A stretch of DNA of 64,000 nucleotides, taken from the NCBI GenBank assembly GCA_012845835.1, contig JABAKD010000009.1, forward strand, positions 10,779,785-10,843,784. The letters run 5' to 3'. This stretch comes from Undaria pinnatifida. Its lineage: Eukaryota; Sar; Phaeophyceae; Laminariales; Alariaceae. Made by a program: the position numbers and the translations under genes. Within the stretch, counting starts at the first letter, position 1, and the number at the start of each line of letters is the position of its first letter. Shown piece after piece: positions 13,101-63,721 of the stretch. The notes under the pieces are model-generated. The model was not told the DNA's origin and ran no database searches. It was given only the letters and a program-made list of their open reading frames with translations.

Positions 13101-14516
13101 CAACGCTGGCACTTGAAAAAAGCGTACGTCCTAGGACGAGCGCGGGTGGAGCCGGCGATAAATAAGCGAGGCGGGCTGAGGATGCGATGGCCCGGAAAGT
13201 GAAGCAGAATTTTCGTGCTGCAGTCCGGAACCGCTGGTAGCCGTAGGTATTAGTTCTTCGGCAAGCAGCGTTGCTCATCGGTGGAAGACGTCGAGTGGAG
13301 CCTCCCGGTTGGGCTCGACGTCTTGGCCTCCCCGCACCCACACCTCAAGACCATCGCTAGAACAAGGGGGTCAGGCTTGGACAAGCGATATCGCATGTAT
13401 GGGGCTGGGCGGGGGGGGTAGATTGTTGTGGGGCGGGGGCGTGGGTGAAGCTAGTTCTTTCAAAGTTGAAGCTGGACCCTCGTCCCGCAATTAGATGGGC
13501 TGGCGCTGGTAGTGCTGTATCGGTTGATCAGCGTGTAGCGTCCAGAGTTTTGTGCCGTGATGGTTATTGGCCGGCCACGCTGTTGTTGCCGATATTGTCG
13601 TCGTTGTCGCAGCAGTTGCCCGAGGAAGAAAAGCGATGATGGCGCTTTCGCCCCAAAAACAGTTGCCATGGCATTTATAGCGAGCGGCATTGGTTGTCGC
13701 GGGTTATTGTCGGGTGATAGCGCCGGGTTTACGGTCCGCACGTTTCCGCCAATACCGAAAGTAAAAACCAATATCCTGAAGCATGCCCATATCTGGGTTG
13801 AGCGCACCAGAGGCGTAGCGGTGTTGCTACAGTGGGAGAGTGTCGCTAGCACGATGCAGGCGTCAGGAGAAACGCCCGACAGCCAGCGGAGTGGTACTCG
13901 ATGGCCAGGAGGTTGAGAATGATGCTCGTCGCAGGTTGTGCCCCGTATCGCAAAAAGTGGTGGTTGCGAGCCACCACTTTTTGGGGTTCGTGAGACAGAC
14001 GCAGGCGTCGTGGGCGTCACAATTTGGGTGGTCGCGACCGCCGTCGCAACCACTACGGATAGGATGGCGTCTGCGTCGTTGAGCGACTTTGCTGTCGCTG
14101 TTACTGCGGTCAATATCGGTGATGTAGGTGGTAGGCGGAGAAGAATGGCGGTGTAGGAGGTAGTCGGAGAAGAACGGTGGTCTTAACCTGAGCGGTAGGT
14201 GGTGTGTGGGGGGGGGTGTGCGGCGTTTTTGCGGGCTGGTTGCGGAGGGCGCGTGCGGCGTTTTTATGCCGTGGGTTCACGGGTGGTGGGTGCTGGGGCT
14301 TGGAGCGTGTAGGAAAATGCGGCAGTAAAGTTAGTGGGCGGCTCTGTGGCCGTTTTGACAACTGTAGTAGCGGCGGGAGTGGATCGGAATTTCAAGGAAA
14401 TAGTCCGGACAGGTAGTGGCGTAGAAAGGCGACGGTCGCGGCATCGGGATTGGTTTGACTCGATAGTCGTTTGTACAACTGCATCAGCGGCGGAAGTGGG
14501 CCGGAATTTCAAGGAA

Positions 14517-15100
14517 GAAAACCCGACCAGGCAGAATACCGCAGACGGAGCGTCTAAAGATGCCGACATGAGTCGTATTTGCGTAGGTACGACGTGGCCA
14601 ATAATCCCAAAAAATAGTATACCGCAGACAGGGGTGTCTTTGGGTGCCGCCCGGTCGAGACCGTGGGCGCGCCGGATGCAGTTGTGAGCGAGAGCCAGCA
14701 AACAAAAGCAGGGGCGATTGGGCGCAGGGGGTTAAGCGCGGTGATGGGCGGGCGATTTTGAACCGTTGCGGTGATAGACGCGGCCGCGTGGGGTGGGCGG
14801 TTATGGGAGAAAACCCGACCAGGCAGAATACCGCAGACGGAGCGTCTAAAGATGCCGACATGAGTCGTATTTGCGTAGGTACGACGTGGCCAATAATCCC
14901 AAAAAATAGTATACCGCAGACAGGGGTGTCTTTGGGTGCCGCCCGGTCGAGACCGTGGGCGCGCCGGATGCAGTTGTGAGCGAGAGCCAGCAAACAAAAG
15001 CAGGGGCGATTGGGCGCAGGGGGTTAAGCGCGGTGATGGGCGGGCGATTTTGAACCGTTGCGGTGATAGACGCGGCCGCGTGGGGTGGGCGGCTATGGGA
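14517..15100. repeat. 292-bp tandem duplication, nearly identical
   Basis: Copies span 14517-14808 and 14809-15100. By eye they differ at one or two bases (for example GGTTATGG against GGCTATGG at the end), so this is a recent duplication inside otherwise old, decayed sequence. Confidence 0.92.
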
Positions 15101-15830
15101 GCCGGGGATGGGATGTGAGCAGGAACGTGTCGGTTGGGGCGGTAGTCGTGGCTCAGATGGGGGGGGGTGGGGGTGTGTGCAAGAGTCGGTCAAACTCGAG
15201 TACGCTGGTGGGGCACAAAGGGCTGTAGTCGCGGTGGCGTACTATTCGGTAACCGCCGCGGCACTGGCCTAATGGATGCCGTTGCGGCGACACACTCTGT
15301 GGTAGTCGTCGCTGTACTTGCGGCGTTGTTGCGATCCCCCACGGGAAAGAAACAAACCTCTTGGCCCCAGGCGCTAAACGAAAATCGCAGTCGTATCAGG
15401 TGGGCGTCTCTCGTAGAGGGATCCGTTTTCCTAGCCTCGGCGTGTAAGGTGGCCGTACCAACCGTCGAGGAATCCGGTTTGACTGAAATGGGTCGGGGTC
15501 AGTGGCGGCGGTGAAAATGCCGTCAACGACCCCGGCCACAAAAATGCGCTCCGGGCATTATTTCGATTTTATTGAACTGAATGACAAGATCCTTCACCGT
15601 AACTGTACCACCCATAGCTACAGTAGGATAAGAACGCGAAGCGCACTGTTCATTGTGAGGGTTGAGGGGTCGGGTCTTGGTTGGTGCGGGATTTGCCGCG
15701 AGGGTTGGGGGGGGAGCTCCATGTTGGTCCAGAATGGATAGGAAATGAGGAGACTTGGTATCGCACGCACCGGAGTGAAGAAGTAGGATGCAGTACAGGT
15801 AGTTTTCGAACGTCACCAAGAAGACCAGAA

Positions 15831-27947: not shown

Positions 27948-27975
27948 AGCAGACACCCACAGCACGCTCCGGAGA

Positions 27976-29690
27976 CCACCAGCGCTGGGTTGGCAGGCCA
28001 GCCGAAGGGTGCTTGTATGCTACTACTAGCAGTGTAGAGTGTGTTGGTGTTCGTGTGTGTGTCCCAAAATGCACCCACGAGGTGGTTGTTTGCGTGCGAG
28101 GGTGTAGTTCGTCACGCGGTTTGATTTGAATCGCAGCCGTTTGAATTTTATGGTTTTGTAAGGACGAGGAGGGTTTTTTGGGAAGGGACGTTCTTTCCGC
28201 AGCCCAGGGCACAACGAAGTGAAATGTTTGTGTGTTGTGTTGTTTTTTTTTTGTTGTTGTCCCGCATCGTGATGTAGCAGGATCGAACAGCAGAGGCGCA
28301 AACGTTCCAGCGCATGCACCACCAGCGCTGGGTTGGCAGGCCAGCCGAAGGGTGCTTGTATGCTACTACTAGCAGTGTAGAGTGCGTTGGTGTTCGTGTG
28401 TGTGTCCCAAAATGCACCCACGAGGTGGTTGTTTGCGTGCGAGGGTGTAGTTCGTCACGCCGTTTGATTAGAATCGCAGCCGTTTGAATTTTATGGTTTT
28501 GTAAGGACGAGGAGGGTTTTTTGGGAAGGGACGTTCTTTCCGCAGCCCAGGGCACAACGAAGTGAAATGTTTGTGTGTTGTGTTGTTTTTTTTTTGTTGT
28601 TGTCCCGCTTCGTGATGTAGCAGGATCGAACAGCAGAGGCGCAAACGTTCCAGCGCATGCACCACCAGCGCTGGGTTGGCAGGCCAGCCGAAGGGTGCTT
28701 GTATGCTACTACTAGCAGTGTAGAGTGCGTTGGTGTTCGTGTGTGTGTCCCAAAATGCACCCACGAGGTGGTTGTTTGCGTGCGAGGGTGTAGTTCGTCA
28801 CGCCGTTTGATTAGAATCGCAGCCGTTTGAATTTTATGGTTTTGTAAGGACGAGGAGGGTTTTTTGGGAAGGGACGTTCTTTCCGCAGCCCAGGGCACAA
28901 CGAAGTGAAATGTTTGTGTGTTGTGTTGTTTTTTTTTTGTTGTTGTCCCGCTTCGTGATGTAGCAGGATCGAACAGCAGAGGCGCAAACGTTCCAGCGCA
29001 TGCACCACCAGCGCTGGGTTGGCAGGCCAGCCGAAGGGTGCTTGTATGCTACTACTAGCAGTGTAGAGTGCGTTGGTGTTCGTGTGTGTGTCCCAAAATG
29101 CACCCACGAGGTGGTTGTTTGCGTGCGAGGGTGTAGTTCGTCACGCCGTTTGATTAGAATCGCAGCCGTTTGAATTTTATGGTTTTGTAAGGACGAGGAG
29201 GGTTTTTTGGGAAGGGACGTTCTTTCCGCAGCCCAGGGCACAACGAAGTGAAATGTTTGTGTGTTGTGTTGTTTTTTTTTTGTTGTTGTCCCGCTTCGTG
29301 ATGTAGCAGGATCGAACAGCAGAGGCGCAAACGTTCCAGCGCATGCACCACCAGCGCTGGGTTGGCAGGCCAGCCGAAGGGTGCTTGTATGCTACTACTA
29401 GCAGTGTAGAGTGCGTTGGTGTTCGTGTGTGTGTCCCAAAATGCACCCACGAGGTGGTTGTTTGCGTGCGAGGGTGTAGTTCGTCACGCCGTTTGATTAG
29501 AATCGCAGCCGTTTGAATTTTATGGTTTTGTAAGGACGAGGAGGGTTTTTTGGGAAGGGACGTTCTTTCCGCAGCCCAGGGCACAACGAAGTGAAATGTT
29601 TGTGTGTTGTGTTTTTTTTTTTTTGTTGTTGTCCCGCTTCGTGATGTAGCAGGATCGAACAGCAGAGGCGCAAACGTTCCAGCGCATGCA
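27976..29690. repeat. five-copy 343-bp satellite array
   Basis: Units start at 27976, 28319, 28662, 29005 and 29348 with CCACCAGCGCTGGGTTGG, each exactly 343 bp apart. Copies two to five are nearly identical and the first has a few differences. The array begins 29 bp upstream of the OTU start codon, so it occupies that gene's promoter region. Repeated minus-strand frames of 98 and 135 codons in each unit follow from the repeat; 343 is not a multiple of three and I see no protein signal in them. Confidence 0.95.
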
Positions 29691-30020
29691 CCACCAGCAC
29701 TGGGTTGGCAGGGCAGCCGAACGGTGCTTGGATGCTAGTAGCAGTGTCGGGGGGGGGCGACGCGCCCCCCCCCGAACCCCCCCCCCCGGGCCCGACACAG
29801 TGTGCGTTGGAAGGACCCTCACCAGCAGCTACTACTAGCAGTGTAGAGTGTGTTGGTGTTCGTGTGTGTGTCCCAGAATGCACCACCAGCACTGGGTTGG
29901 CAGGGCAGCCGAACGGTGCTTGGATGCTAGTGGCAGTGTCGGGGGGGGGCGACGCGCCCCCCCCCGAACCCCCCCCCCCGGGCCCGACACAGTGTGCGTT
30001 GGAAGGACCCTCACCAGTGT
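29691..30020. repeat. two 192-bp satellite variants with GC hairpins
   Basis: Related to the 343-bp unit by their first 60 bp (CCACCAGCACTGGGTTGG at 29691 and 29883). Each then has a G9 run, CGACGCG and a C9 run, followed by a C11 run and GGGCCCGACA. The G and C runs can pair perfectly, and TGTCGGG can also pair with CCCGACA. Confidence 0.88.
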
Positions 30021-38500: not shown

Positions 38501-39150
38501 TTTTTTCACAACCGCCCTCATTTTGGCAGTACGCGTACGTGTGGAAAATGACCCGCCTCCCACTGCAAGACGTGGACGTTCACGAACCGATTCGTTCTTC
38601 CTCCATGCCCACCTCCACCACCTCCACCACCTCCACCCCCGACGACTGGGACGACGATGAGGAGGACGTATTTGGCGAGGACGGTGAATCGGCCGTAGTG
38701 GATGAGGCGACATGCTCCCCCGCCGCCACGACCCCGACCACCAATCGAGACGACACGGCCGTGCCCTTCCCCCCCCGCAACGAAGTCCTCGAGGGTCACG
38801 AGACCGAGCAATTGGTGTGCGATGACTTGAAGGGGGAGAACGGGGGCGAGGAGGAGAACGGAGTGGAGAAGGAGAACGGGGGAGAGGAAGAGGAGAAGAA
38901 CGAGAAGGACGAAAAGGAGGACGAGGAGAGCCAGGAGGAGCAAGACGGGGACGTCCGCCGCTGCGAAGAACATGTGGTGTCACCCCTGTTCGTGTACGAT
39001 GTGCTTCTTCGCGGCGAGGTCACATCAGCAAGCGGAAGCTCCGAGGTGTGCCCTGCCGCTGACGAGGCGGTGATGTTCGACCACTTCGAACTAGACACCC
39101 TGCTTGACACACCAGAGCAAGAGATCGGCCAGTCGATGTCCGAGGACGAG
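32559..39150 (+). CDS. acidic multi-exon protein, exons 1-3 (unknown function)
   Basis: Unrecognised host gene with long introns. Exon 1 is 32559-32630 (MAAGTVVINWPARLVSLF, 24 codons, then GTAAGT). Exon 2 is 37505-37621 (39 codons, KDTFRIVRLVDNGKIWSQ, flanked by CACGGCAG and GTATGT). Exon 3 starts at 38530 after a pyrimidine tract and TTTTGGCAG with YAYVWKMTRLPLQDVDVHE. All three junctions are phase 0, which supports one gene. Exon 3 encodes a Ser/Thr stretch, DDWDDDEEDVFGEDGE, and a long Glu/Lys/Asn region likely to be disordered or coiled, then CEEHVVSPLFVYDVLLRGE and FDHFELDTLLDTPEQEIG. Beyond 39150 the exon runs into a palindromic amplification. The undamaged end seems to be the second sense copy at 40788-41178 plus DNA to 41350. 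Nuclear or cytosolic location is a guess. Confidence 0.5.
32715..33040 (+). mobile_element. tRNA-derived SINE, copy B
   Basis: A box TGGTCTAGCGG (32723-32733) and B box GGTTCTACTCT (32771-32781) are 37 bp apart, a tRNA-like spacing. The body word AAATCGGCGAGCA and the tail ACACCTGCGTGTAACCACGG (from 32991) match copy A (AAATCGACGAGCA, ACACCTGTGACCACGG). It lies inside the first intron of the acidic gene. Confidence 0.65.
33041..34700. other. intron DNA, nothing firm
   Basis: Part of the 4.9-kb first intron of the acidic gene. TACCAGGTA sites lie at 33157, 33554 and 34672, and a pair of GTACAGCTCGTTCGTGAC-like direct repeats near 33560-33640. No exon or RNA gene is supported. Confidence 0.35.
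34710..35640. repeat. degenerate about 405-bp tandem modules
   Basis: The words GACAGGCTCCGACACAAGCA recur in variant form near 34716, 35117 and 35526. CTACCGCTGCTGCTG with GGCAGGGTTGTAGCG appears at about 35186, 35279 and 35582, and TTTTGCTCTCCGCAT at 34885 is a further match. Within the first module, 34765-34858 is also found at 55752-55845. Confidence 0.5.
34765..34858 (+). repeat. 95-bp repeat shared with 55752
   Basis: It has GGGGTATTCC, then CTCCAGAGTGACTGGAGCC (a 6-bp-arm hairpin) and GACTTGATTATGCGAG. The copy at 55752-55845 lies just outside the end of the LTR element. About 90% identity by eye. Confidence 0.75.
35641..36320. other. intron DNA, nothing firm
   Basis: No gene is supported. 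Local CCCGGGGAT repeats occur at 35725-35755 and a G9 run at about 36211. A minus-strand frame of 147 codons (35986-35543) has no recognisable domain. Confidence 0.3.
36330..36870. repeat. degenerate GCACCGCACAGCA minisatellite modules
   Basis: Three modules (36335-36440, 36540-36680, 36720-36865) each hold runs of 10-bp units like GCACCGCACA or GCACGGCACC and end with GAGCCGAGCTG or GAGCCGAGTTG. Still within intron 1 of the acidic gene. Confidence 0.7.
38187..38230 (+). repeat. dispersed core, partial copy
   Basis: CTCGATCTCACAGCTGGAGTG followed by ATTTTATAT matches the inverse of 61371-61412 and 62340-62380. It lies in the second intron of the acidic gene. Confidence 0.45.
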
Positions 39151-41178
39151 GAGGAGGAGGGCCGATCTCTTGCTCTGGTGTGTCAAGAAGGGTGTCTAGT
39201 TCGAAGTGGTCGAACATCACCGCCTCGTCAGCGGCAGGGCACACCTCGGAGCTTCCGCTTGCTGATGTGACCTCGCCGCGAAGAAGCACATCGTACACGC
39301 ACAGGGGTGACACCACATGTTCTTCGCAGCGGCAGACGTCCCCGTCTTGCTCCTCCTGGCTCTCCTCGTCCTCCTTTACGTCCTTCTCGTTCTTCTCCTC
39401 TTCCTCTCCCCCGTTCTCAAGCTCCGAGGTGTGCCCTGCCGCTGACGAGGCGGTGATGTTCGACCACTTCGAACTAGACACCCTTCTTGACACACCAGAG
39501 CAAGAGATCGGCCAGTCGATGTCCGAGGACGACGACGAGGAGGAGGGCCGATCTCTTGCTCTGGTGTGTCAAGAAGGGTGTCTAGTTCGAAGTGGTCGAA
39601 CATCACCGCCTCGTCAGCGGCAGGGCACACCTCGGAGCTTCCGCTTGCTGATGTGACCTCGCCGCGAAGAAGCACATCGTACACGCACAGGGGTGACACC
39701 ACATGTTCTTCGCAGCGGCGGACGTCCCCGTCTTGCTCCTCCTGGCTCTCCTCGTCCTCCTTTTCGTCCTTCTCGTTCTTCTCCTCTTCCTGTCCCCCGT
39801 TCTCAAGCTCCGAGGTGTGCCCTGCCGCTGACGAGGCGGTGATGTTCGACCACTTCGAACTAGACACCCTTCTTGACACACCAGAGCAAGAGATCGGCCA
39901 GTCGATGTCCGAGGACGAGGAGGAGGAGGAGGGCCGATCTCTTGCTCTGGTGTGTCAAGAAGGGTGTCTAGTTCGAAGTGGTCGAACATCACCGCCTCGT
40001 CAGCGGCAGGGCACACCTCGGAGCTTCCGCTTGCTGATGTGACCTCGCCGCGAAGAAGCACATCGTACACGCACAGGGGTGACACCACATGTTCTTCGCA
40101 GCGGCGGACGTCCCCGTCTTGCTCCTCCTGGCTCTCCTCGTCCTCCTTTACGTCCTTCTCGTTCTTCTCCTCTTCCTCTCCCCCGTTCTCAAGCTCCGAG
40201 GTGTGCCCTGCCGCTGACGAGGCGGTGATGTTCGACCACTTCGAACTAGACACCCTTCTTGACACACCAGAGCAAGAGATCGGCCAGTCGATGTCCGAGG
40301 ACAAGGAGGAGGAGGAGGGCCGATCTCTTGCTCTGGTGTGTCAAGAAGGGTGTCTAGTTCGAAGTGGTCGAACATCACCGCCTCGTCAGCGGCAGGGCAC
40401 ACCTCGAAGCTTCCGCTTGCTGATGTGACCTCGCCGGGAAGAAGCACATCGTACACGCACAGGGGTGACACCACATGTTCTTCGCAGCGGCGGACGTCCC
40501 CGTCTTGCTCCTCCTGGCTCTCCTCGTCCTCCTTTACGTCCTTCTCGTTCTTCTCCTCTTCCTCTCCCCCGTTCTCAAGCTCCGAGGTGTGCCCTGCCGC
40601 TGACGAGGCGGTGATGTTCGACCACTTCGAACTAGACACCCTTCTTGACACACCAGAGCAAGAGATCGGCCAGTCGATGTCCGAGGACGAGGAGGAGGAG
40701 GAGGGCCGATCTCTTGCTCTGGTGTGTCAAGAAGGGTGTCTAGTTCGAAGTGGTCGAACATCACCGCCTCGTCAGTGGCAGGGAACACGTGCCCTTCCCC
40801 CCCCGCAACGAAGTCCTCGAGGGTCACGAGACCGAGCAATTGGTGTGCGATGACTTGAAGGGGGAGAACGAGGGCGAGGAGGAGAACGGAGTGGAGAAGG
40901 AGAACGGGGGAGAGGAAGAGGAGAAGAACGAGAAGGACGAAAAGGAGGACGAGGAGAGCCAGGAGGAGCAAGACGGGGACGTCCGCCGCTGCGAAGAACA
41001 TGTGGTGTCACCCCTGTGCGTGTACGATGTGCTTCTTCGCGGCGAGGTCACATCAGCAAGCGGAAGCTCCGAGGTGTGCCCTGCCGCTGACGAGGCGGTG
41101 ATGTTCGACCACTTCGAACTAGACACCCTTCTTGACACACCAGAGCAAGAGATCGGCCAGTCGATGTCCGAGGACGAG
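38758..41178. repeat. palindromic amplification array in an acidic coding exon
   Basis: Two sense copies of the exon (38758-39150 and 40788-41178, over 99% identical by eye) flank four tandem 386-bp units plus a partial fifth. Inverted arms begin with GGCCGATCTCTTGCTCTGG at 39160, 39546, 39932, 40318 and 40704; direct arms begin AAGCTCCGAGGTGTGCC at 39420, 39806, 40192 and 40578. So sense and antisense versions of the same coding text alternate, and both strands show long open frames. The first inverted arm pairs with about 258 bp of the left sense copy; the later hairpins have arms of about 95 bp with spacers near 30 bp. Units differ mainly in the GAG/GAC codons at the spacers. Confidence 0.95.
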
Positions 41179-42241
41179 GGTGGAAGGGGAGAAGGGCAAG
41201 GGAGAGGGGACGGAGGGGGGGACGGAGGATGCCAAGGGCGAGACTTTCTTCGGATGGCTGCCCTGGAGCGGACGCGCTTAGCGAGAGCTGCAAACAGCTC
41301 GCGAGAACGCGGGACAGGGGGACGTCACGATAAACGACAAGGCGTGCATTGTGAGTCAGTGGAAGTTTCGTTACGCTGCTGTACATCTGTACATAGTACT
41401 CGGGGTAGAGATGTATTTGTGATAGATGCGCATGCGGTATTGGCAGCATTTTTTGTGTACATTGGGCATGCGGTATTGCAGCATTGTTTGTGTACATTGC
41501 ACCCCTTAGTGGTATCCGAAGTCTAGACCGCCGTGGTGTCGCCACGAAATACAATGCTTACTGATCTCACGGTATCGCAAAATCTGGATTGCCTACGACA
41601 TGCACGATACCCATGCAACGCAAACCATGGAGCAATCCTTGTGCTAGTGCTAGTCGTATTCGTATTCATACTATTAACAGCAGGTAGTCACTAATATCAA
41701 CCAGCGTGCCGTGCTAAGGATAATCAATCGATCAAAGACATGAAACAACAAATAAGCTCCACCTCCATTCATCCAACCATCCTCCCATCCGTCCATCTAT
41801 CCATCCTCGAGAAAATAAATAAATACTTGAACACCAAATTTTCTTCACCGAGTGTGCCCCATCTTCCCCTCCTCATCTCTCCCCTCCTCTCTCCTCCCCT
41901 CCCTACCCCTTCTCTGTTGGCCAACTATGTTATCGCAGAAGGTCACAGTGGACGGAAGACCCGTCCTGGCTAGGTCGGGAAGGTTTCAATGGGAATTCAT
42001 GAACCGGATTTTGCAGAGGAGGCCTCGGGATGGGGGTTACGAGGTGCAACTTGCCGACGACGACGCCGGCCTCGAGGTTCAACTTCGGGGCAGATACGTG
42101 TGGGGCATGCGTGTGGGTGGCGAGGGGATGGGCAAGCAAGCTGGAGGATTGAATGCAGGGGGTGATGACGCCGAAGGCGATGGCCGTGGAGGGAGAAAAA
42201 TCTGGGGGGTTTCCGCCTCAGACTGGATGGGAGATTTGTAA
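41179..42241 (+). CDS. acidic multi-exon protein, end of exon 3 and last exon
   Basis: Past the second sense copy, the plus-strand frame that reads best is GTEDAKGETFFGWLPWSGRA. It is shifted by one base from the acidic frame and then meets a TAG (41279-41281). The same frame goes on as NAGQGDVTINDKACI to a GTGAGT donor at 41351. The last exon (41939-42241), after a long pyrimidine tract and TATCGCAG, joins in phase 0 and reads KVTVDGRPVLARSGRFQWEF, then GGYEVQLADDDAGLEVQLRG, and stops at 42241. The frame shift and TAG suggest that the rearranged gene is damaged here, or that an exon boundary is missed. The FDKAAIN end of exon 1 and this NDKACI end both sit at phase-0 donors, possibly an ancient exon duplication. 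Function unknown. Confidence 0.4.
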
Positions 42242-44792: not shown

Positions 44793-47700
44793 TCAACTAG
44801 CCACGTCCGCGCCTCGAGATTCATCTACGCTACTTTGAATCCCGCGTGCAACTGATCCACCCCGGCGGAGTTGAAGGCACCAGGAACCTTGAACACCTCC
44901 TGTCGAAATCGTGTGGTGAGCCGGAGAGAGCGGAAGCTTGATCGGTCCCGCGTCGTCTACAAAACGTACCAAATATTCCCCGTCGATGGATGTGCGAGCG
45001 CCGATTTTTGCAAGCCACCACCAGCCGTCATCGGCTTTGTACCAAAAATGGGCCCCATTGAGGAACACCGTGGTGCTGTAGTGGCGTAACCAGTCAGTGC
45101 GCGGCACGCAGCCGTAGCCAGGTGCCAAGAAACGTTCGCCGTTAGCACGGGAAAGCTCGCGTTGTGCAGCTCCAATGCGCATCTGCCGATACAGGCGGTC
45201 GGTTTGGCGGTGTTGGTTCGGAGTGCCAACCCAGCAGAGCGAGATCTGCTGGCGTGAGAGCTGGAGGTCCATTTCCCGTTCCCACGACGGGCGGGAGAGC
45301 GCAGTCCAATGCGTCTCGTACATCACCGCGATGACCCCACCTCTACCACGGACCGATTGATGGGCAGTGATACTTTCCACCTCTAGCCGATGGAGGGGCG
45401 CCGACACGTCGTCTTGGGTCACGTGATATGGGGGGGATTTTTCGTAAAATTGTTGAGCACGTACGGCGTCAACCCATCCGGAAGGTACTTAGGCATGTCG
45501 TCGCGGTCGTGGCGGTTGGTGCAGGGCTTGCAGCGCTCGACGGAGACGCGGCGGTGGGCATCCGCGCCGGGCATGTCTGTGGGGAGGTCCAAATAAAGGA
45601 GCTTATCCCCGAGAGGGGAACCGTCCGGTGCGTCGCTAGAGGGGCAGGGGCCGACGGCAAGGATCTTGTAGGGGCCCGTCGAATTTAGCGCGATTTTGGT
45701 CTTGAGCGCCTTTGCATCCGTGCCGGCTCTCGCGCCTTGGCGAGTAATGGAGGCCGTATTATACAGCCAAACCCAATTACCCACAACGAAGTTGGGAACC
45801 TGCCGCAAAGCGTCCGAGAGGGCGGAGTTCCGCCGTTCCACGCGGGAAACTGTTAAGGCATGCATCTCGCGAACAATACCATTGGCGCGCTGTTGGTGTT
45901 CTGACGCCAGGTCGCAGTATGCGAGGTGGTCGCGGGCCAGGCTCTGATGGCCGGCGACCCCGGATTGGTTGCAAATAGTGAGGGGGGGCGCGGGAGTCTG
46001 CCCATGTGAACCTCGTTGCGGGCCAGACCAGTGGCGGCACTGACCGAATTGTTGTAGGCGAACTCCACGTGCGCTAACTGCGCATGCCAATCGTCTTGGC
46101 GTTCGTTGACGACCATAGCCAGCATTTGGGCCATTGTGTGGTTAACGCGCTCCACACCACCGTCGCCGCTTGGATGGTAGGAGCTGGTGGCGATTTTTCG
46201 AACACCAAGAAGCTCATATACGACGTGTGAAAGCTTGGAGCAGAACCGGAGGCCGTTGTCCGAGAGGATGCTACGTCGACACCCTCAAAATGAATCGTAC
46301 CGGTTGATAAGGATGTTGGCCGTGCCTTCAACTGTAAATTCAGCGACGGTGACGGCGAACATGTCCGCACGACGGCTAAAGCGGTCGGTGAAAAGCAAAA
46401 TATAGGTGTTACCCCGGAGCGTGGCCGGCAACGGCCCAAAATAGTCCACGCTTACCGCAATGCCCGGCCCCGGAGGGAGGGGAATCCAAACGATCGGCCA
46501 TCGAACCGTCAGTCGCGGTGTCTCCCGCGCTTGGCACTTCAAGCAATGGCGCAACCACCAGCGGGTGCATATGCTCATTCCTATCCACGCATAGAAACGC
46601 TCGAGCATGCGAAGTGTGCGTGCCGTGCCTAGATGGCAGGGAGCAGTCGAATGGCAGGCTTGCATGATCCAAGGGTGCATGAGTAGCGGCACGTAAATAC
46701 GGATTGGTTCGTCGCTTAAAAGGCAAGCCGCGCGCCCCGCAGGCCGTAAGGAGTGGTGGGCCGGGTTTGGATTGCGGACGAGGAGGACAACGTCCTCGTC
46801 GGTAGTATGGAGGCGGCCTTTGCCAGCGAGCTCTTGGATCTCCGAGAAGGGGGGGCGCTGGTGTGAGACAAAACGCGCTAAGACTTCGGTGGGCAATGTA
46901 TTGTATGGCGGCGAAGCGCGTAGGCTCTGCACGTTGCTCTCTCTTCCCAGTCGGCGGGCGAATAACGCGCAGCGGAACCACGAAAGTGTAGTTCGGCAGC
47001 AGCGCCGAGGGCGTCCAAATCGGTCGCAGGGGCGGAGGGGGGCTCCGAAGGAGTCGAGAGCCCTAACAGCGGGAGACCCAAAGGCTCCGCTCGGTCGCGG
47101 TCAGACGGGATTGGTGACGTCGGGACAGGCGTTGGGGCTCGAGCTGTGTTCGCGGCGGCAGCAAAAGGCAGTCGAGGGCGCGAAACGCGCGGTGGATGGT
47201 CGACCCGAGAGGAAGACGTCTGCAGAACCCGGCCGGGTCCGAAACCATAGTCAACCGCAGGCTGCGCGGCCCCGGCCGCAGCGGCTGTTCTTCGGCGTGT
47301 CCGAGTGGAGATGCGGCCCGTAGGCGGGAGTGCAACGGAAGCCTCCAATGGGGGCGTAGGAGCCCTCGGGAGTAAGTCTGGCGGAGTAGCCCCGGAGGGT
47401 ACCGCGAAAACCGGAGTGAGAATGGCGTCGGCGGCAGGCCAAAATGGCGCGCGGCCGAGGCGGTCATCACCGGTACCGACGAAAGCAGAAACACGTGCCA
47501 CGAATCTCCCGGTGGAAGCAGAAAGGTCGTCAATCCTCATACGTGACCCGTGTGCGCGAAAATCGCAAAAATCAGTGGAGGTAAGGGGGAGCCCACCCAA
47601 GACGGCCCTATCGGGTAGGTGCACCGGCCTACCCAAGCCAAATGGCGGGGATCGATGTGGACGGGGTGAGCAGGCCGCAAGTCCTGACGAGGTATATGGC

Positions 47701-50700
47701 CTCATCGTCGATAAGGGTGAGGCGGCTAGAACCGCTGCGGTCGTGCTCAGTCGCCGGCTGTGGCAACCGCGAGAGGAAGTCAGCATTATCATTGCGCTTC
47801 CTTTCCGGTACTCTAGTGTGTAGTCAAACGCGATGAGATACTCGAGCCACATCTGGACTCACGCGTTGTGGTCTCCGAATTTTCCGATACTTTTCAGAGC
47901 CTTGTGGTTCGAGAAAATGCGAAACTTCGTACCCTGTAGGAAGCCTCGAAGGGGCTTGATCGCCCATGCGATGCTGCCCGCTTCCAACTCAAGCGGCGTT
48001 CAATGTCTTTCCGAGTCGAGGGTAGCGCGGCTAACATAGGCAATGGGTCTCACGGAGCCGTCGGGCTGTTCTTGCTCTAGCGTAGCGCGAAAGCCGTCAA
48101 TGCTGGCGTCGCAGTACACCTGAAAAGGGCGGAAGCCGTCATCCACGGTGTCCCAATCGGGGAAGACGAGGACCGGTGGAACTCCGCAAGCTTGTCACGC
48201 ACGATGACTTCCATTATCGGCGTGAACAGAATGTTGACGTCCTCCTTGAGGAGGGCCGTGATTGGTCGAATCCGCATATCTGGCCGAAACTTTCGGTAGT
48301 GCGAAAGGCCACCTAGGAGAGAGCGCAGCTGCTTCAGGTCGCGAGGCATGGGCATGAGGGTGAAAGCCGACGCTTTCTCGGCGTTTGGACATACGCCCGC
48401 GGGCGAGATGGAGTGGCCCAGGAAATCGGCGTCCGTCGCGCCGAGTCTGGCTTTCGAGGGGGATAGCTTAAGGTTGTGCTTGCGCAGTCGCTCGAAAAAG
48501 AGGGCACGGATGGTTTTAATGTGGGTCGACGGATCTGAATCGAACACAACCACATCGCCCAGGTACGCCGCAACCTGTTCCAAGCCCTTGGTAACCTCGT
48601 TGATCACCTTCACAAATCAACCAGGCGATGCGCTGCTTCCCTGAGGCATACCCAGCCACTCATAAAGGCCCGTGGGCGTGCAGAATGCCGTGAGTGGAAC
48701 TGTGTCGTTGTGGGCGGCTATCTGGTGAAACGACGACACTAGGTCGAAAAGCGAGAAAACGCGTCCCTTGCCCAAAGAGTCCAGGACCTGATCCACGAGC
48801 GGGATGGGCAGCTGGCTGAGTCTGCTAATGTCGTTGAGCTCCGTGTAGTTAACAGTGATCCGAACCCCGCCAGATTGTTTTGGGACGACCGCCAGAGGGC
48901 TCGAGTATGGCGAAGTCGAGTGTTGGATCAGACCGGCAGCGTGGTACTGATTGAGGGTGGTGTCCACCTCTTTGGTCAAGATCGGGTTAATGAGATGTAG
49001 TCGGGAGGTGACAGGCTTACTGCCCTCCGGTACCAAAATTTCGAAGGGCATCAGAGAGAAGGAGCCAAAAACCGTTTTGGAGCTGGAAAAAAAACTTCCG
49101 GAAATTCGCGGAGGACGTCACCTAGTTCCTCGATGGCCGCAGGGGTCCACTCCGGGCTATGTAAGTCAAAAGTTATTTTGCGGAGATGCTTCGGCAGGCG
49201 GTGCCAGTCGCGCAGGAACAAAACCCTTTGTTCGGGAGTCAAACGCTCGAGCAGGGCAGGCGAGGGCGAGGCCGTGGCTGCAGCCGCTGCGAGAGAGGGT
49301 TCCAGAATGGCCGCCACCTCAGGCGCGTTTGTGGGCGGGGAGACGGCTGGTGCGCTGTTCGTACTCTGGAAAACGGCAATGGGTGCGCGCATCAATGGGG
49401 CGTGGGCGACCCCCAGAAGGTCGCCAGGATCGCGGTCGGTCGCGCCAATGATGGGGAGAACTTGTCGCCATGAAGCGGCAAAACTTTCTTCGGCAAGAAG
49501 AAGATCCGACTGTGGCAACATTTCGACGAGATAGTGGCCCGTAAAAGCTGGTAGGCCGTTACTGCGGACCAAATTAACAGCGAGCAGCTGAGGCTCGTCT
49601 GACAAAGCGACGCGATCGGCGCCATCCTAACGGAGACAAAAACCTCCCCCAGAGGCGAGGGGGTCGGGTACAAAAGCCGATGCACCCGTGGAGGCATGGT
49701 GAAATAGCGTCAGCTCCCCGAAAACCCTCTGGTCAGAGGGGCGGGGAGGGAAAGAGCGGTAGGACCGCGTATTAAAACGCACCCAGCTATCGCGTCCCAG
49801 GAGCACCGCGTGTTGCATAACTGAGGGCGGAACGACGCAGGCCCACACGGCGAGAGAGCTCGCCGCTTGTTCAGCCCGGAAAAATTGGACGCTCAAGCGG
49901 ACGCTCGTCGAAGTTCGTATGGAAGCGGATCTGCCGAATTTCCCCCAGGAACGTGGGGCAGAGCCCTGCTCGCAATTCACGGCGGCCACGCCACCCGCAA
50001 GCATCTGCTCCAAGACGTCACGGCGGATGAAAGTCTAGGTGGAGCCCGTGTCTAGGAGCGCGACACAACCAAAAACTGTAGAGGCGGTAGTTCCACTATG
50101 CACGGTAATTTTGGTGGTAATAGAGGCGATGTCGAGCGTAATCGTGTCTCCGACGAGGCCCGGGCCGTGCTCGGGGAGCAAAGGCATGTCCGCGGGGGTG
50201 AGCGCGGCGCACGAGGCGATAGCCAGCACAACAGGGCTGTGGTCCGCTGGCGCGTCGAGAAAATGGGTCGAAAATTCTGAAGGAGGACCGGGGCAAGCAC
50301 GTGCTGAAGTCGAAGCGCGTCGGCGGTGCGGTGTTAGTCTCGTGAATTCCCTCGGACTGTATTGGAGTGTAGAATTGAGGAGAAGAGGGGTGTGCGAACC
50401 CGTCCATGCCGTGGCGAAGGAGGTCGCGGACGGTAGAAAGAGCCTGCTCGAGCAAGTTCCTTCCTCCCCACAAGTGGGGGTCATGGGCGTCGCGGTCGTC
50501 CGCCTGGAGGCCGATGCCCCACACCTGATCAAAAGGGCTGGTTTCAGCTAAAACTTGTTACCAGTGCCTATAGGGTGGTGTTCACTCTCCGAGTTTTGCG
50601 AAAACTTGGCAAAGTCCCAGCGAGAACGGCGTTTTCGCGTTGCCGCTCCCAAATGGCTTTGTCGAAACCCCGGACGCTCCGTCCGATGCGCTTGTGCGAT

Positions 50701-52009
50701 TGGGGTTCCGACGTGCTCAGTATGAGCTTCAGTGCACGGTGGTCGTGGAAGAAGCGTGCCTTTTCGGCCATCATAAATTGCTCTGCGCAACAATACAAAA
50801 CGTCGTTGTCGACAAACGCCGACGCTGTCCATTGCGAAAAAATGTAGGGGGGTCGCCAAAACAACACGACGTTAGCCGTGGAATACTCGTGTGTAGGGGT
50901 AAAATTCGAGGAGGGCGAGCCCTCGGAGGGTATGGCTGAGGCGCGCAGTGCAGCCCTGTGGGGGCACTGGGTCGCCGACGCGGACCGCGTGGCCGATCTG
51001 CCGGTCACCGGCGGTGGGGCGTTATTGCGCGTAGGGGAAACGTCGCCAAAAGTGGTTCTCTCTGCGCCCATCGATTGGGGGTCAACAGGGGCACGGGGAT
51101 CGGAGCCAATTCTGCTTGACGAGAGGAGCGAGTCACCCGCGCGACGGCAGGCAGATACCCCGGTTACGTTGACCGAAGGTTGTGGAGTCACCGTGGGTTC
51201 GACGGGCAGTGTCGGGATCGCCTGTTTCACTGCTGCCGTGGAAGTCCGGGGGGGGTGCTCGCGGGCACGCAAAGACAAAGGAAAGCCTGCAGACACTCCA
51301 GACGAATTTAAAAACGGGCCTCGGATGGGCGGCCCTTGAGTGCCCGCCGGAGGGGGTTTCTGCCCTGTACTCACGTCTGGGAGACGGGGCGGGGTAGCTA
51401 GTCTCGCTGAATCCTCTGTGATAGGGAACAGACCAGAATGCCCACCGTTCATGCGGGGGAACGCCGAGTCGAGCGCTAAAGAGGGGCTCGGGGGTTCCGG
51501 CGCCGGCCTTCCCGCACCTCAAACCAACCGTCGTCGTATGGTCGGGACCAGAAGGGCGGGGTGTGTAGGAGCGAGGCAGGGGGCGACGCTCTCGCGAAGA
51601 GTCAATGTGGCGCGGTGGGTCTAGACCCAGGGCGCGCGTTGCGCGATGGGGAGTGTTGCTCAAGGCAAGAGCTCCCGGCGCGGCAGTGGTGCCATTAAAA
51701 TAATTGTCAGCAGGCGTTGCAACACGCGTGGGCGGGACGCGGGGTCTGGGCGCAGCCGGGTTCAATCCCGGGCGGCGGCCAGTACATGGTTGTAAAGTCG
51801 GTGCTGTAGGCAAAATGCCAGATGCGCGGTGATTTTCGGCGGCGGTTGGCAGCGAAGGAGCGCGAGAGCTGGTCGCGGTAGCAAGATGTGCTATGTCACA
51901 AAGCCTAGGAAGGGTGCCGGTACCCATGATCAGCGTCCGGGGCTTGGGGTCAGTGGTCGAGGCTGATCGGCGCTGGGCGCTTGACGAGCGTGGGGCACGG
52001 ACATCTCGT

Positions 52010-52095
52010 GAAATATGTATATTAAAAATAATTTTCAAGGACGTCAGCCGCGAGTTTGACGAATTTCAGGTCAATTGTCATCTTTGCAAGCTGCG
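52010..52095 (-). repeat. dispersed 80-bp core inside the LTR element
   Basis: On the minus strand it reads CGCAGCTTGCAAAGATGA, TTGACCTGAAATT and CTCGCGGCTGACGTCCTTG, very close to the copy at 23247. Its place inside the fossil element suggests a later insertion. Confidence 0.75.
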
Positions 52096-55000
52096 TTGTT
52101 GGTACTCGTAATATACTATATGAGTGAGTTTTTATTGGGAGGTGTCTTGTTTTTCGTCCACTATAATGTATTTGTTCCCCTTGCAATGCTGGCGGTGGAC
52201 GCGCGAGGGGTGCCGTACCACCGTCCTGGGCGTCAATTACCAGTGCGGAAAATGCCGGGTTGACGCGCATTTGGGTTACTATTGTTCGATAGACCAAGGC
52301 GCATGTTAGGGGCGTTATTCGGTGAGGCGGGCGAGGGCGGGACTGGTTGGTGCACAGTTATGGCTGAGCTATTGGTGTTTTTACCGTAGCCGCCGTCAGA
52401 CCCCTGCTGTGAAAACCGGAACGCGCGTCTTGGGAATTGTGACCGGAGTTGGAGTTGTGGACTGACCCTGGCCGTGTTGCCGGCCTGGCCGGTGCCGGCG
52501 GCCCTTGCGAGAGCTGGTTCCGGGTCCTCCTGTTTTGTTGCCGCGGCGGTAGCGCAGCATGCGTTCTTGCCAGCGGCGGTACGCGGCGCCGTTGTCCCCG
52601 AGCTGACCAAGCTCGGGGTTGATGCACCCGCTAGCATTAATAAAGGTTGCGAATACTGTTCAAAAGAATGTGACGTCTCGTGGCAAGTAAGGCAGTGTCC
52701 TTGGTTATCACGAAGGGCTGCCGCGCGTGCGGTCGGCGAAAGGAGGCTGTTCCATAGAGGAGGGTCATCGGTCGAAAATGTATCAGTAACAGTGCAAACT
52801 TCATCACAGTGTGCAAGCGGCCAGTGCGAGTACGACGCGGATGAGACCCAGGGGTCGGTGGGATCTTGTAAAACATTCATTACTACCGGGTTGCGTTGCG
52901 AACCCGTCGCCCAAGCAGAAGTCTGCGATGTCGCGCGCCCCCGCCCACGGCCCGGGGCGGCAGGCGGGGGACCCGACGCGGCGGAAACACGTCCCCCAGA
53001 CACCGCAGGTAGCGAAAATAATTTTGCGCCGTTAATGGCTGGTGTTTTGTTATTCGCAAGGGTACCCAAAGCTAACCACATAGCATCAATTGAACCAAAA
53101 GGCTGAGGACGAGTTGCCAGCTCTCCAGGGTACAAACTAGGCATGAGCTGCGGAAACTGCTCGTTTACGCTAAGACGCACAATCTCCAGTACCAGCCCCA
53201 ACCCTGGCGCCAACGCGCGCTCGCTGCCCGTAAACCCCAAAACAACCAACCGAAGAGCGCGGTAGTAAGCCGCGTAAGGGGCACCGTTGGGCACGCCAAA
53301 GTTATGAAGCTCGCTAAGAGCAGATGCCGCGTCTCCGTTGTCAAGCTGCCGGCTCAGCACTTGGACGAGAAGTTCAAAAGCCGCCGGACCGGAATCTCCT
53401 CGTTTGATTGCTCGCGAGACCTGGCCAAAAGTGTCATCAATGACGGTGTTGAGGGCGGGGGCGGACGGTTTGTCAATGTTGATAGCACGCTCGACAGCTC
53501 GGTGGAGGGTGCGTTCCCACCCGGGGATCCAAACCGGGAATTTCAGGCCGTCTCTACTGCAGCGTGAATCGCAAATCATGAGGATGTCGGTTGGGCTTCC
53601 TTGACCGAGCGCATCAGTTGTTGGGCGGCGAGAGCCTGGTTGAGGTTTGTGGGGGGCAAGGATATGATGCGCGCCATCTTGCGCGTGTCATTATTGACGT
53701 ATTTGTACTTGACGGTGTCTATGTGATCGGCTTCTGCGCGGGCGACGGCCTCGTCTACGGCGGCCTGCCGCTCGCGGCCGAGAGCGGATGACAACGGCTG
53801 TGCGCCTTCGGCAGAAATGGTCATTTTCGCCAACCTCTCCGTTAAGGGGACTACATCTACCAAGGACGGAACTTGTCTCTTGAGCGGTTGTACCACTTTG
53901 ACGTCAGGGGGAGGTGACCCAACTTCCCCCCCCCAGTGAAGAGTCGGAGGGTGGGCCCGGGGTGTAGGAACCAGGCCCCCGACCCGAGTTCTGGCGGCTC
54001 GATTTCCCCCCAGCAGACCTTCTGTGGCCTCCTCCTCCCTTGCTGCGGTATACCGAGCCCATGCGGCGCCCGTTCTCACCACCTCCGCTGCTGTGGCCGG
54101 AGCCGCCGTGGTAATTTCTGCCGGAACCACCTCCCTGACGGTCGCGGTTGAGGTTGGCGGCCTGGTTCGCCAAATCATCGGCGTACTCCGAGGGGGTCAG
54201 CCAGAGGATGCGCTCGGACGTGGACGCGTGGGCGCTCCTGAGCGCGTCACAGAGGGCGTGCACGATGACGGTGAGGTGCTGGGTGAAGTATGAAACCGGG
54301 CCCGTCTTGCCCCTCGCGTCGCGCACCGATAGCCGCCGATCCGGTAGCTGGGCCAGCACTGCCGACGCTGCTGCCACGACCTGGCCCGCTCGATCCGTGC
54401 CGAAATGCGCGGTCCTGTCCCCCGCCGCCATGCAGGGGAAACTGCCATCCAGAAAGGCCCCGTCCTTCGAGATGGTCGGTGTTACCGCGTCGGGACGGGC
54501 CACAGCCGCCGCGGGAGGGGCTCCCACAGCATCGGCGGGCGGGGCGCCCAGGAATTTGATGGCCGCCGCAGCCGGGTGGTTCCCAGCGTCCGCGGCAGGG
54601 GCTCTCTCGGCAGGTAAAGCGCCCAAAAAAGAGGCAGGAGAGCAGCGCGGCGTTGGTTGTGCGACGGGGTACGGCCCAAGGGCCTGGACTGGGTTTTCCG
54701 CGGCAACAGCGGCGGGGTAAGGCCCTGGGGCCTTGTACGGGGTTCCCGCGGCAGGAACGGCAGGAATTCCTGAGGAATAGGGCGCTACTGCAGCTGTAGC
54801 GGCGGGAACACGACCACTGTGGCGGTGCTTGTCGCCGGTCTTGGCGAGAACCCTTTTGGCTCGCTGGACGGCAGCACCTGCCTCCTGCGACTTTCGGGCA
54901 GCCACCGCCACCTCAGGCTGCCCTAGCGCGATCCTCCTCCTCCCACTCCCGCATGACGCGGAACCTCTCCTCGGTGGCTGCTCGCGTCCGCCGCTCCGCT

Positions 55001-55562
55001 CCCACGTGGGAGGTGGCGGCTTTGGCGTGCGTCGCCTTGGCGGTGGCGAGCGCCCCGGTGTAGGCACGGGTCGCCCCCTCTTGAGCCAAAGAGGCCTGCC
55101 GGGCGGCGTTGGACAGTACCCTATCCTGGACAGCACCTGTCCCTAGAGGGAAGCCGAGACAATTGCGGACGTCGGCCGGAATCCTCCGCCAGTGGTCCTC
55201 AGTGAGGGTACCCTCGAACATGGGGGGCAGGGCCGGGGTGGGTGGGAGCTCCGGCTGGAGGGGCGGCCCCTCGCCATGGTCCCGGTGGGCCGGCCCTGAT
55301 GGCTCCAGCTCCTCGAGCAGCAGGGAGCCCGTCCCCGTGGGGGGGGGTGGTCGGTGGCGGCGCAACCCCGTCCCCCCTTTCACGGAGGGGAAGAGCGTCG
55401 TTGTCCGTGTCGCCATGCGGGGCGAGTATGTGGTCGACCACACCGTCCGAGAGGTAGGAGAAGGCGCTCCTCTCGTCCTCGGAGAGCTGGTAGCGAACGC
55501 CGCGGCGTCGTCCGTACGTGTCCCTCCACCGATCCTCGTCCGATCCCGTAGACATTTGTACT

Positions 55563-55641
55563 CCTTCAAAGGCATGTGAAACCCTTTTATATCCAGCCGT
55601 AATCCATATCTTACGCCTTGTTAGGCTCCCAGGGGAATACC
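55563..55641 (-). repeat. terminal direct repeat of the LTR element, right end
   Basis: 79 bp matching 44077-44154 in direct orientation. It abuts the apparent gag start, leaving little room for a primer-binding site. Confidence 0.75.
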
Positions 55642-61440: not shown

Positions 61441-62335
61441 GATACTCCGATCGCGCGCATTACGAGTTGTGTGTCCTCATTAAGGATATAGGTCGGCGAC
61501 TCCCCTTGCAACTACAGTGTAGCTATCAGGGTCAACAGGATGATTTAAGTCAGTCTGTGCGCGGAAACTATAAAACCCGTTTCTGAGGGGGACAAAATCT
61601 GACAGCTGTGAAGGGAAATGTATCCTTTTATCAAGTGAATCTTGTAAGTCGAATAACCGGTGAGGGGGGTGGGGCGGAGTTTTGAAGGACGTGCGGGCCT
61701 GGTTTTGATCAAAAGCGAGCGGGTTTGGAGGGGGGGGGGGGGGAAGGGAAAGGGGGCAATTTGTGCATGTAAGCAATAAATCCTTTCGAGGGGATAAATC
61801 TGACGGTTTTGGCACCAGTATGTTATTGGGGGCGGGGGGGGGGGGGGGGGGGGTTGGGGCGGGGGGGGGGGGGGGCGGGCGGGGGGGGCAGCTCAATATG
61901 TGCCTGGAAACTATACATTATTTTGAGGGGATAAATGTGACGGTTTTGGAAATATTACATTAGTTTATCATGTATATCCTGGGGTAAGTCGTACAATCAG
62001 TGAGTAAAGAGAGGGTGGAGTGTTCGAGGGGGTGGGTTGGGATGAGGTGGGGGGTGGGGGCGGGGGGGGGGCGGGGGGGGGAGGAAGGGCTTTAGGTGAG
62101 GGGTTTGTTATACGTGTGGTGCTAGGTCTAGGCGATGGTGCGGGTGATGGGGAAGAAGGGGGCGTTCGAGGCGGGGGGGGGGGGGGGGGACACAGCGGCA
62201 TGGATGGCTCTCGAAAGATAATGAGGTGATATCCTGTGCGTGAAGTGTTTATTAATGTGGCAGATTTCGATATTTGGTGGGGCGTTTGAGTAAGGGAGAG
62301 CAAGAGGGGGGGGGGGGGATTTTTTAGGAGGTTTA

Positions 62336-62400: not shown

Positions 62401-63721
62401 GCGTGGTGCTAGGTCTAGGCGATCGTGCAGGTGGTCGGAAAAGAGGCGGCGTTGGAGGGGGTGGGGATTGGGGGGAAAATAATTGAAAACTACGTCATGG
62501 ATGGTCAGAAAGATAATGACGTGATATCAACTGCGTATAGGTGTTTATTACTCGGGCCGATTTTGATTGTGAGTGGGGCGTTTGGACAAACTAGGCGGAA
62601 GGGGGGGGGAATCGGGGGACGGAGGGGCGGGGGGGGGAGGGTTGGGGTTTTTTATTAACAAGAGGGGTCAGTGGAGGGGGAGGGGAGGGGGGGGGGGGGG
62701 GGGGGGGGGGCGGGGGGCGGGACATTTCAATATGTGCGCGGAAACTATATATATATCCTCAAAGGGGACAAACCTGACGATTGAAGCAAAAAGACATCCC
62801 CTTATATCATCTGGCTTGTAATGTTTACTATTCCAGAAGGTTTGATGTTAGATGCAGCATGCAACCCAGTGTTTAAGTGTAGTAAATAACGTGTTAAATC
62901 TTCATAATTTGTTGTTGTATGATACATCGATCGAAAGCTAGAATATTTTATAGAATATTTGTAGGTACCATTGCTTTCTGACATGGCTAATTATAAGAAA
63001 GAGATACGTATTGTCAAATACAACAGGCGAGGTGATGTGGTCATGCACTGTTTGTCACCATCATCATACGGTTACCATTATTTTCTGACATCGCTAATTA
63101 TACGAAAGAGATACGTATTGCCAAATACAGCATGCGAGGTGATGTATGTGGCCCTGTACTGTCTCCGCCATTGAGCGTTAGAGGGAGGGATGCGAATCGT
63201 CAGTTTTAAAGGAACGCTTGGTATACATGTGCTCAATTACGTTACCTCGTTAGTCATACTTGGTATACACGCGCTCAATTACGTGCCAGGTATTCAGTAC
63301 GAATCATCATACGTATGTACCTGGTACCAACTACTGCTGTGAATAATTATGAGCTTTAGTTGATCATCATTAATAGATGTACATCATTATTAGTTGATTA
63401 TTTTGTGACAGACCAAACGCGTTTTTCGTTGGAGCTGGCGAAACAACTGCCTGCGGCGCGACCTAAAGGATGCTTCGAAAGATATAACCGGTAAAAGCCA
63501 CTGTTCATATTAATAATTAAGCCAAATATTGGATTTCCGCGAACCATGATATTGACAAGTTTTGGAAAAATCCATAAAAAACGATGTCACGATTCGCGAC
63601 AAAAAAGAGTTGATTGTTTTTTGACAACGCGACATACTGTCTGTAACACCAATTTGCACAGTCATGAAGTGTGATTTTTTTAGAGGAGGCTCCATTCGGC
63701 CAGCTGGAGCCGGAATAAATG

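Follow-up and report, generated by a model that had tools for sequence, protein, structure and literature searches.

Structure of the array

The window analysed here is a 64,000-nucleotide stretch of the Undaria pinnatifida genome (GenBank assembly GCA_012845835.1, contig JABAKD010000009.1, forward strand; C61:10779785-10843784, C61 being the contig label in all genome coordinates below). Its subject is an exon encoding acidic residues, at window positions 38530-41350, which contains an array of alternating sense and antisense copies of part of itself. The assembly has been described as chromosome-level, 511,280,173 bp in 114 scaffolds, produced with PacBio, Falcon, Arrow, Pilon and 3D-DNA (PMC7058681). 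The window was read directly and scanned for direct, inverted and tandem repeats, and the genome was searched with it over 511,146,479 bases in 68 contigs.

The exon opens behind an acceptor-like CAG, at TACGCG, with a full sense copy (S1, 38530-39159, plus strand) that runs to the first fold-back and ends in a 29-nt spacer (39131-39159). Four 386-bp units follow, each consisting of a 259-nt antisense arm and then 127 nt in sense orientation, in which a truncated sense arm of 95 nt is followed by a GAG/GAC spacer of 32 nt. The antisense arms (minus strand) occupy 39160-39418, 39546-39804, 39932-40190 and 40318-40576, and the sense arms with their spacers (plus strand) 39419-39545, 39805-39931, 40191-40317 and 40577-40703; arms of both kinds were placed by repeat search and junction map. 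A fifth antisense arm (40704-40787, minus strand, junction map) is broken after 84 nt, at the start of a second sense copy (S2, 40788-41169, plus strand). S2 is joined in turn to a distal part of the exon (41170-41350, plus strand), behind which a donor-like GTGAGT begins at 41351. These splice-like edges were found in the window and in all copies scanned for them.

The array is confirmed. As an earlier note made from the sequence had proposed, direct and inverted arms alternate between near-identical sense copies (38760-39059 and 40788-41087, with 99% identity across 300 nt), and the spacers, which the note described as acidic GAG/GAC runs, are indeed composed of GAG, GAC and AAG runs. Its four exact 386-bp periods hold for the spacing, with antisense arms starting at 39160, 39546, 39932, 40318 and 40704, but there are four full units plus a broken fifth, and the units are 98-99% alike to unit 1 in the repeat search rather than exact. 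The arms are also unequal, the antisense arms being the long ones and the sense arms within the array truncated. Among the 25 longest of 30 inverted pairs, arms of 266 nt are 97-98% complementary and arms of 95 nt 99-100%. The exon between its splice-like sites is wider than the 38758-41178 given in the note, which was otherwise right in the main.

To call this a rebuilt coding exon was too generous. The sense frame entering from S1 ends at 39268 (stop at 39268-39270), 36 codons inside antisense arm 1, and the S2 frame runs into the distal exon part shifted relative to the open copies of the gene elsewhere on the contig. The window gene copy is therefore disrupted, and with its reading frame broken by the array it has probably become a pseudogene or specifies a truncated product.

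Junctions and multiplication of the unit

The junctions were mapped against one reference, the plain exon of a paralog at C61:10896160 which lacks the array, and exon coordinates are those of that paralog. The map reads +1 to 651, -622 to 367 and +531 to 654, repeated through four units, and then -622 to 542, +255 to 633 and +1159 to the exon end. Its junctions are of four kinds: J1, the fold-back at a GAG run; J2, the return jump; J3, the jump that breaks the fifth antisense arm and restarts as S2; and J4, a jump to the distal exon that uses a 10-bp word, GAGGACGAGG, found at both joined places. Breaks in the map at exon 583-587 and near 79-104 are indels between the paralogs and not junctions.

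All five fold-backs lie immediately 3' of GAGGAGGAG and restart at exon position 622, and each of the four return jumps leaves position 367 and lands at 531. The fold-back loop is 29 nt at S1 and 32 nt at the other four places, the first spacer being 3 nt shorter. Because the fold-backs and the return jumps coincide, the composite unit arose once and was then copied; an independent template switch in each unit was rejected on the same ground. A transposable element with inverted repeats was also rejected, since in the junction map, where this was judged and where no other element features were searched, the array is exon sequence throughout.

The units carry private changes that bear on how they were copied. 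Unit 2 has CTTTTCG, the ancestral form implied by both sense copies, and units 1, 3 and 4 have CTTTACG. Sharing of this variant by non-adjacent units fits multiplication by exchange, and unequal exchange or slippage between the 386-bp direct repeats would explain the unit variants simply.

Further copies of the array and the assembly

The array of the window (c1) is repeated 33.6 kb downstream (c2, C61:10851939-10854708), and a truncated third copy (c3) begins directly after a 500-N gap at C61:10863709-10864208. Aligned over the array part, c2 shows 27 substitutions and 25 indels relative to c1 (2851 columns), and c3 shows 3 indels without any substitution (1462 columns). A 17.8-kb comparison of c1 with c2 yields 27 substitutions and 121 indels; 1-bp events account for 114 of these indels, and 38-46 kb of the window holds 115 indels and 22 substitutions. 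Over 24.8 kb the c1-c3 comparison gave 52 substitutions and 69 indels (26 of these at 42-44 kb). This clustering looks like a local failure of polishing in very recent duplicates, and c2 and c3 may be a single copy seen from both sides, or one duplicated in assembly. The copy left of the 500-N gap has clustered 1-bp indels, and copy number there is doubtful.

The earlier note had asked that an assembly artefact be considered. Such an artefact of library or assembly would have let palindromic reads or a mis-resolved repeat into the consensus. The gap next to c3, the excess of 1-bp indels with its look of unpolished long reads, the concentration of c1-c3 indels at 42-44 kb and the near-identity of c1 and c3, with c2 and c3 perhaps one, all speak for such an origin. 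Since c2 and c3 are near-identical, partly unpolished and, in one case, adjacent to the gap, they are weak independent proof of the array. Against an artefact, the junctions are ordered and the marks specific to units 3 and 4 (EDKEEEE; LEASAC and LAGKK) occur in identical order in c1 and c2. The same units appear in the unpolished c2, as would be expected if raw long reads had crossed them.

The gene family and its plain-exon members

The exon occurs without an array in the C61:10896160 paralog and in a cluster of tandem paralogs at C61:9.25-9.41 Mb, here called cluster A and represented in the counts below by 140 kb. The genome search matched eight places in this cluster, and seven copies at 9.27-9.41 Mb were read; in three of the seven a single frame stays open throughout the exon, and a protein search found 533-aa open frames at four places. 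The intact exon encodes an acidic protein in which a short motif occurs twice in diverged form, and the second copy approximates to LKVGDVLRGKL.SA...AVWPAADG.LMFG.F. The motif also appears in seven weaker matches on other contigs, three of which were read. These distant paralogs, on contigs C32, C48 and C1, share LKVGDVLRG...AVWP..DG.LMFG, and two of the three adjoin very acidic or His/Asp-rich runs.

The family is unnamed, and no curated family covers the intact exon. Pfam gave nothing for the intact exon at the curated cut-off and three matches below it, the best being CDC45 (E 0.0037; 16 bits against the 34 needed). The window exon, a distant paralog and two pieces from downstream also had no match at that cut-off. 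A PDB search returned a single match with E = 0.28. Upstream of the array, the codon-position pattern of divergence indicated no clear exons.

Ratios of nonsynonymous to synonymous substitution (dN/dS) against a cluster copy were 0.72 for the window copy and 0.76 for the 10.896-Mb copy (about 204 codons), and 0.55 between these two. Within the cluster two pairs gave 0.31 and 0.35, on 7 synonymous and 8-9 other changes; a pair without synonymous change yields no ratio. Cluster A may be under some constraint, and the outlying copies appear to be under little.

A second array in another family member

The genome search with the second motif gave alternating plus and minus matches at C61:11258071-11267158. 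They mark a second array of about 9 kb (C61:11258061-11266908) in the exon of another family member. Both its sense and its antisense copies derive from around exon positions 932-1151, not from the part used in the window. Twelve of its 15 units are 589-604 bp long and three are shorter; the twelve full units average 94.5% identity, with 91-99% between listed neighbours. Over 16 units the arms are 69-93% alike, 15 of the 16 lying at 81-93%, with some scored on 35-125 columns. Because its arms have diverged to this extent, the second array is the older of the two. It is not a copy of the window array, and it shows that two family members carry such structures.

Two fold-back sites are seen in it. 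The first lies between GAGGAGGAGAGGGG and CCCCTCTCCTCCTC (in short form, between GAGGAGGAGAGGGG and CCCC) and is loopless in the first unit, some later units having decayed to a 14-nt loop; the second lies just after GAGGAGGAGGGTG and has a 10-nt loop. Each of the two arrays lies at a GAG-rich place.

Hairpin folding and its background

Folded as RNA, one 386-nt unit forms a 95-bp perfect stem with -255.5 kcal/mol, and its folding is far stronger than that of shuffled sequence (z of -18.0 for RNA and -19.2 for DNA, each from 100 shuffles). The earlier note's statement that a transcript would fold into serial hairpins follows from the sequence, as modelled on this one unit. Background was drawn from 264 kb, much of it tandem copies. 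Inverted pairs of at least 50 bp lying less than 3 kb apart, counted with a low-complexity filter, numbered one in the 140 kb of cluster A, which holds about seven similar copies. The 124 kb surrounding the window contained 38, of which the three array copies account for 36. Perfect hairpins (arms of at least 20, loop of at most 40) numbered four in cluster A and 12 around the window, 11 of the latter in arrays; 17 were counted in 13 kb at 11.26 Mb. Near the exon, two cluster A copies contain perfect hairpins whose arms measure 22-24 nt (L015, about 6796-6890; L017, about 6643-6737).

Probable origin by template switching

We consider it likely that the window array began as a small inverted triplication, made by replication template switching in the acidic exon of one tandemly duplicated gene copy, and was later multiplied as a 386-bp unit. 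The supporting observations are the mapped junctions and their coincidence between units, a GAG-run fold-back with a loop of 29-32 nt, the paralogs with a plain exon and the second array. In the proposed sequence of events, a purine-rich nascent strand would fold back at the GAG run (J1), copy itself back over about 256 nt and then jump forward (J2). Unequal exchange or slippage between the resulting direct repeats would multiply the unit, and J3 and J4 would add the second sense copy and remove the second domain.

The closest published counterparts are the small inverted triplications (SIT) of yeast without Rad27 and of tumours, whose duplicated, inverted and duplicated segments (DUP/IN/DUP) have median lengths of 148, 160 and 148 bp. 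They are raised by loss of FEN1/Rad27 and have two spacers with a median of 30 bp and reverse-complementary breakpoint microhomology with a mode of 6 bp; they lie preferentially near microsatellites and are unstable, with gain and loss of units by slippage having been proposed (PMC13334657). The window array shares their DUP/IN/DUP order (sense, antisense over 256 exon positions, and sense of 95 nt plus spacer), the scale of a few hundred bp, the fold-back spacer of about 30 bp (29 and 32 nt here), a breakpoint at a simple repeat and a position in a gene body. It differs in lying in a reference genome, in its four units and a fragment, and in belonging to a gene family that carries a second array.

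Several points weigh against the proposed origin. At the return junction 164 nt separate the arms where SIT have their second spacer of about 30 bp. Microhomology judged by eye is 2 bp at J1, 0 at J2, 1 at J3 and 10 at J4, a direct jump, and is thus shorter than the SIT mode at three of the four junctions. With its longer second loop and shorter microhomology, the array is best described as working like an SIT and not as a strict member of that class. A GAG rule (at least 13 purines and three GAG in the 14 preceding nt) is satisfied by 4-5% of positions in the plain exon and, by eye, by the first window fold-back and the loopless 11.26-Mb site, and it fails at the site with the 10-nt loop. The rule was set after the junctions had been seen and there are two independent sites, so the link to GAG runs is suggestive only. 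The number of units is uncertain, being read from assembly sequence, and the 0.6% divergence upstream between c1 and the plain paralog proves by itself neither state to be ancestral.

Genome searches for (GAG)4 followed after 0-30 nt by (CTC)4, and for the reverse order, gave no matches, a result that is uninformative either way on GAG fold-backs. Larger rearrangements offer a further comparison. The inverted interstitial triplications made by origin-dependent inverted-repeat amplification (ODIRA) likewise give a sense-antisense-sense outcome of replication template switching, but they measure kb to Mb and involve an origin or long inverted repeats, whereas the window array spans hundreds of bp in one exon (PMC10766183). 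A search of open literature returned no paper on an alternating-orientation tandem array tied to a template switch, and among the matches listed for brown-algal inverted repeats no title concerned such an array. DUP-TRP/INV-DUP rearrangements, inverted triplications of kb to Mb, are also said to have a sense-antisense-sense order made by template switching. Overall, the interpretation in the earlier note is partly supported: template switching at a fold-back, which it had put forward as a possible cause, gains support from the junction map and from the likeness to published SIT.

Alternative explanations

A different account accepts the same birth and proposes that the arrays are hairpin-RNA loci, whose transcripts are diced to RNAs of about 21 nt that silence the intact tandem paralogs, with selection keeping and multiplying the hairpins. 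Within a single, recently amplified family, different parts of one exon have given rise to two separate arrays; the window array sits between splice-like sites of its host gene, and each of its units is a long inverted repeat able to form double-stranded RNA through the perfect stem described above. Complementarity to possible targets exists: cluster A (140 kb) contains exact matches to 132 of the window array's 549 distinct 21-mers and to 50 of the 3265 from the array at 11.26 Mb. In Ectocarpus, a brown alga, small RNAs are mostly 21 nt long and there is a single Argonaute (PMC12867755), and tandem hairpin loci derived from amplified coding genes are known in Drosophila, where hp-CG4068 varies from 9 to 20 copies between species and the hp-tHMG cluster of 13 hairpins was born from an amplified gene (PMC10317233). 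Like these loci, the window array has tandem inverted repeats, variable copy number and complementarity to intact paralogs and, like hp-tHMG, it derives from an amplified coding gene; it differs in being known from DNA alone, in having its hairpins inside a family member's own exon and in the decay of the older array's arms (PMC10317233).

That decay weighs against selection for hairpins, since arms that have drifted to the levels given above mean that the stems were not kept perfect. Mismatches in the older array comprise 147 G-U against 71 A-C (160 other, in 2876 columns), about 8 to 4 in a typical unit, an excess that carries little weight because the units are copies of each other. The weak constraint between family groups (dN/dS of 0.72, 0.76 and 0.55) also speaks against this account, which we regard as unlikely; a silencing role against the intact tandem paralogs is possible. 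Its broader form, in which the acidic exon would be a repeated birthplace of hairpin arrays feeding an Argonaute and 21-nt small-RNA system to restrain a recently amplified and perhaps selfish tandem family (the eight copies at 9.25-9.41 Mb), seems quite unlikely.

The preferred template-switch origin could also be kept with a different multiplication step, a one-step rolling replication of a hairpin-capped or dumbbell intermediate, resembling ODIRA at a tiny scale. The unit can be drawn as a closed path of a 95-bp stem with loops of 32 and 164 nt (95 + 32 + 95 + 164 = 386), and hairpin-capped intermediates are known for large inverted amplicons (PMC10766183). The unit variants, with CTTTACG in units 1, 3 and 4, also fit later exchange, no origin or extrachromosomal form was seen, and published triplications of the ODIRA route are far larger and contain an origin (PMC13334657). 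Rolling replication as the multiplication step is, in our estimation, distinctly improbable.

An artefact of assembly or library, finally, is made very improbable by the second array, which comes from another part of the exon in another paralog and combines units 94.5% alike on average with arms of 69-93% complementarity.

Implications

Published SIT come from mutant yeast and from tumours, where they are rare and unstable mutations (PMC13334657). At this locus an SIT-like event has seemingly been retained by a reference genome and amplified there, and a second member of the same family has seemingly been struck in a similar way. The locus is remarkable mainly for that older and longer array, made from a different part of the exon in another family member, and the two arrays hint at a fragile exon or, possibly, at a home-made gene-silencing RNA. 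They offer a natural test of whether purine-rich codon runs such as GAG are fold-back hot spots, and of whether such accidents are raw material for hairpin-RNA genes.

Other features of the window

No tRNA was found in the window and no Rfam family reached its gathering score there. Two other tandem repeats are present, a 343-bp repeat at 27975-29737 (5.1 copies, 99% matches) and a 292-bp repeat in two copies at 14516-15101, and long G-rich runs lie at 61828-61888 and 62676-62721. The minus strand of 44793-55620, part of which is inside the segmental duplication, carries long open reading frames which, from motifs recognised by eye, we take to resemble the gag/pol of a long terminal repeat retroelement.

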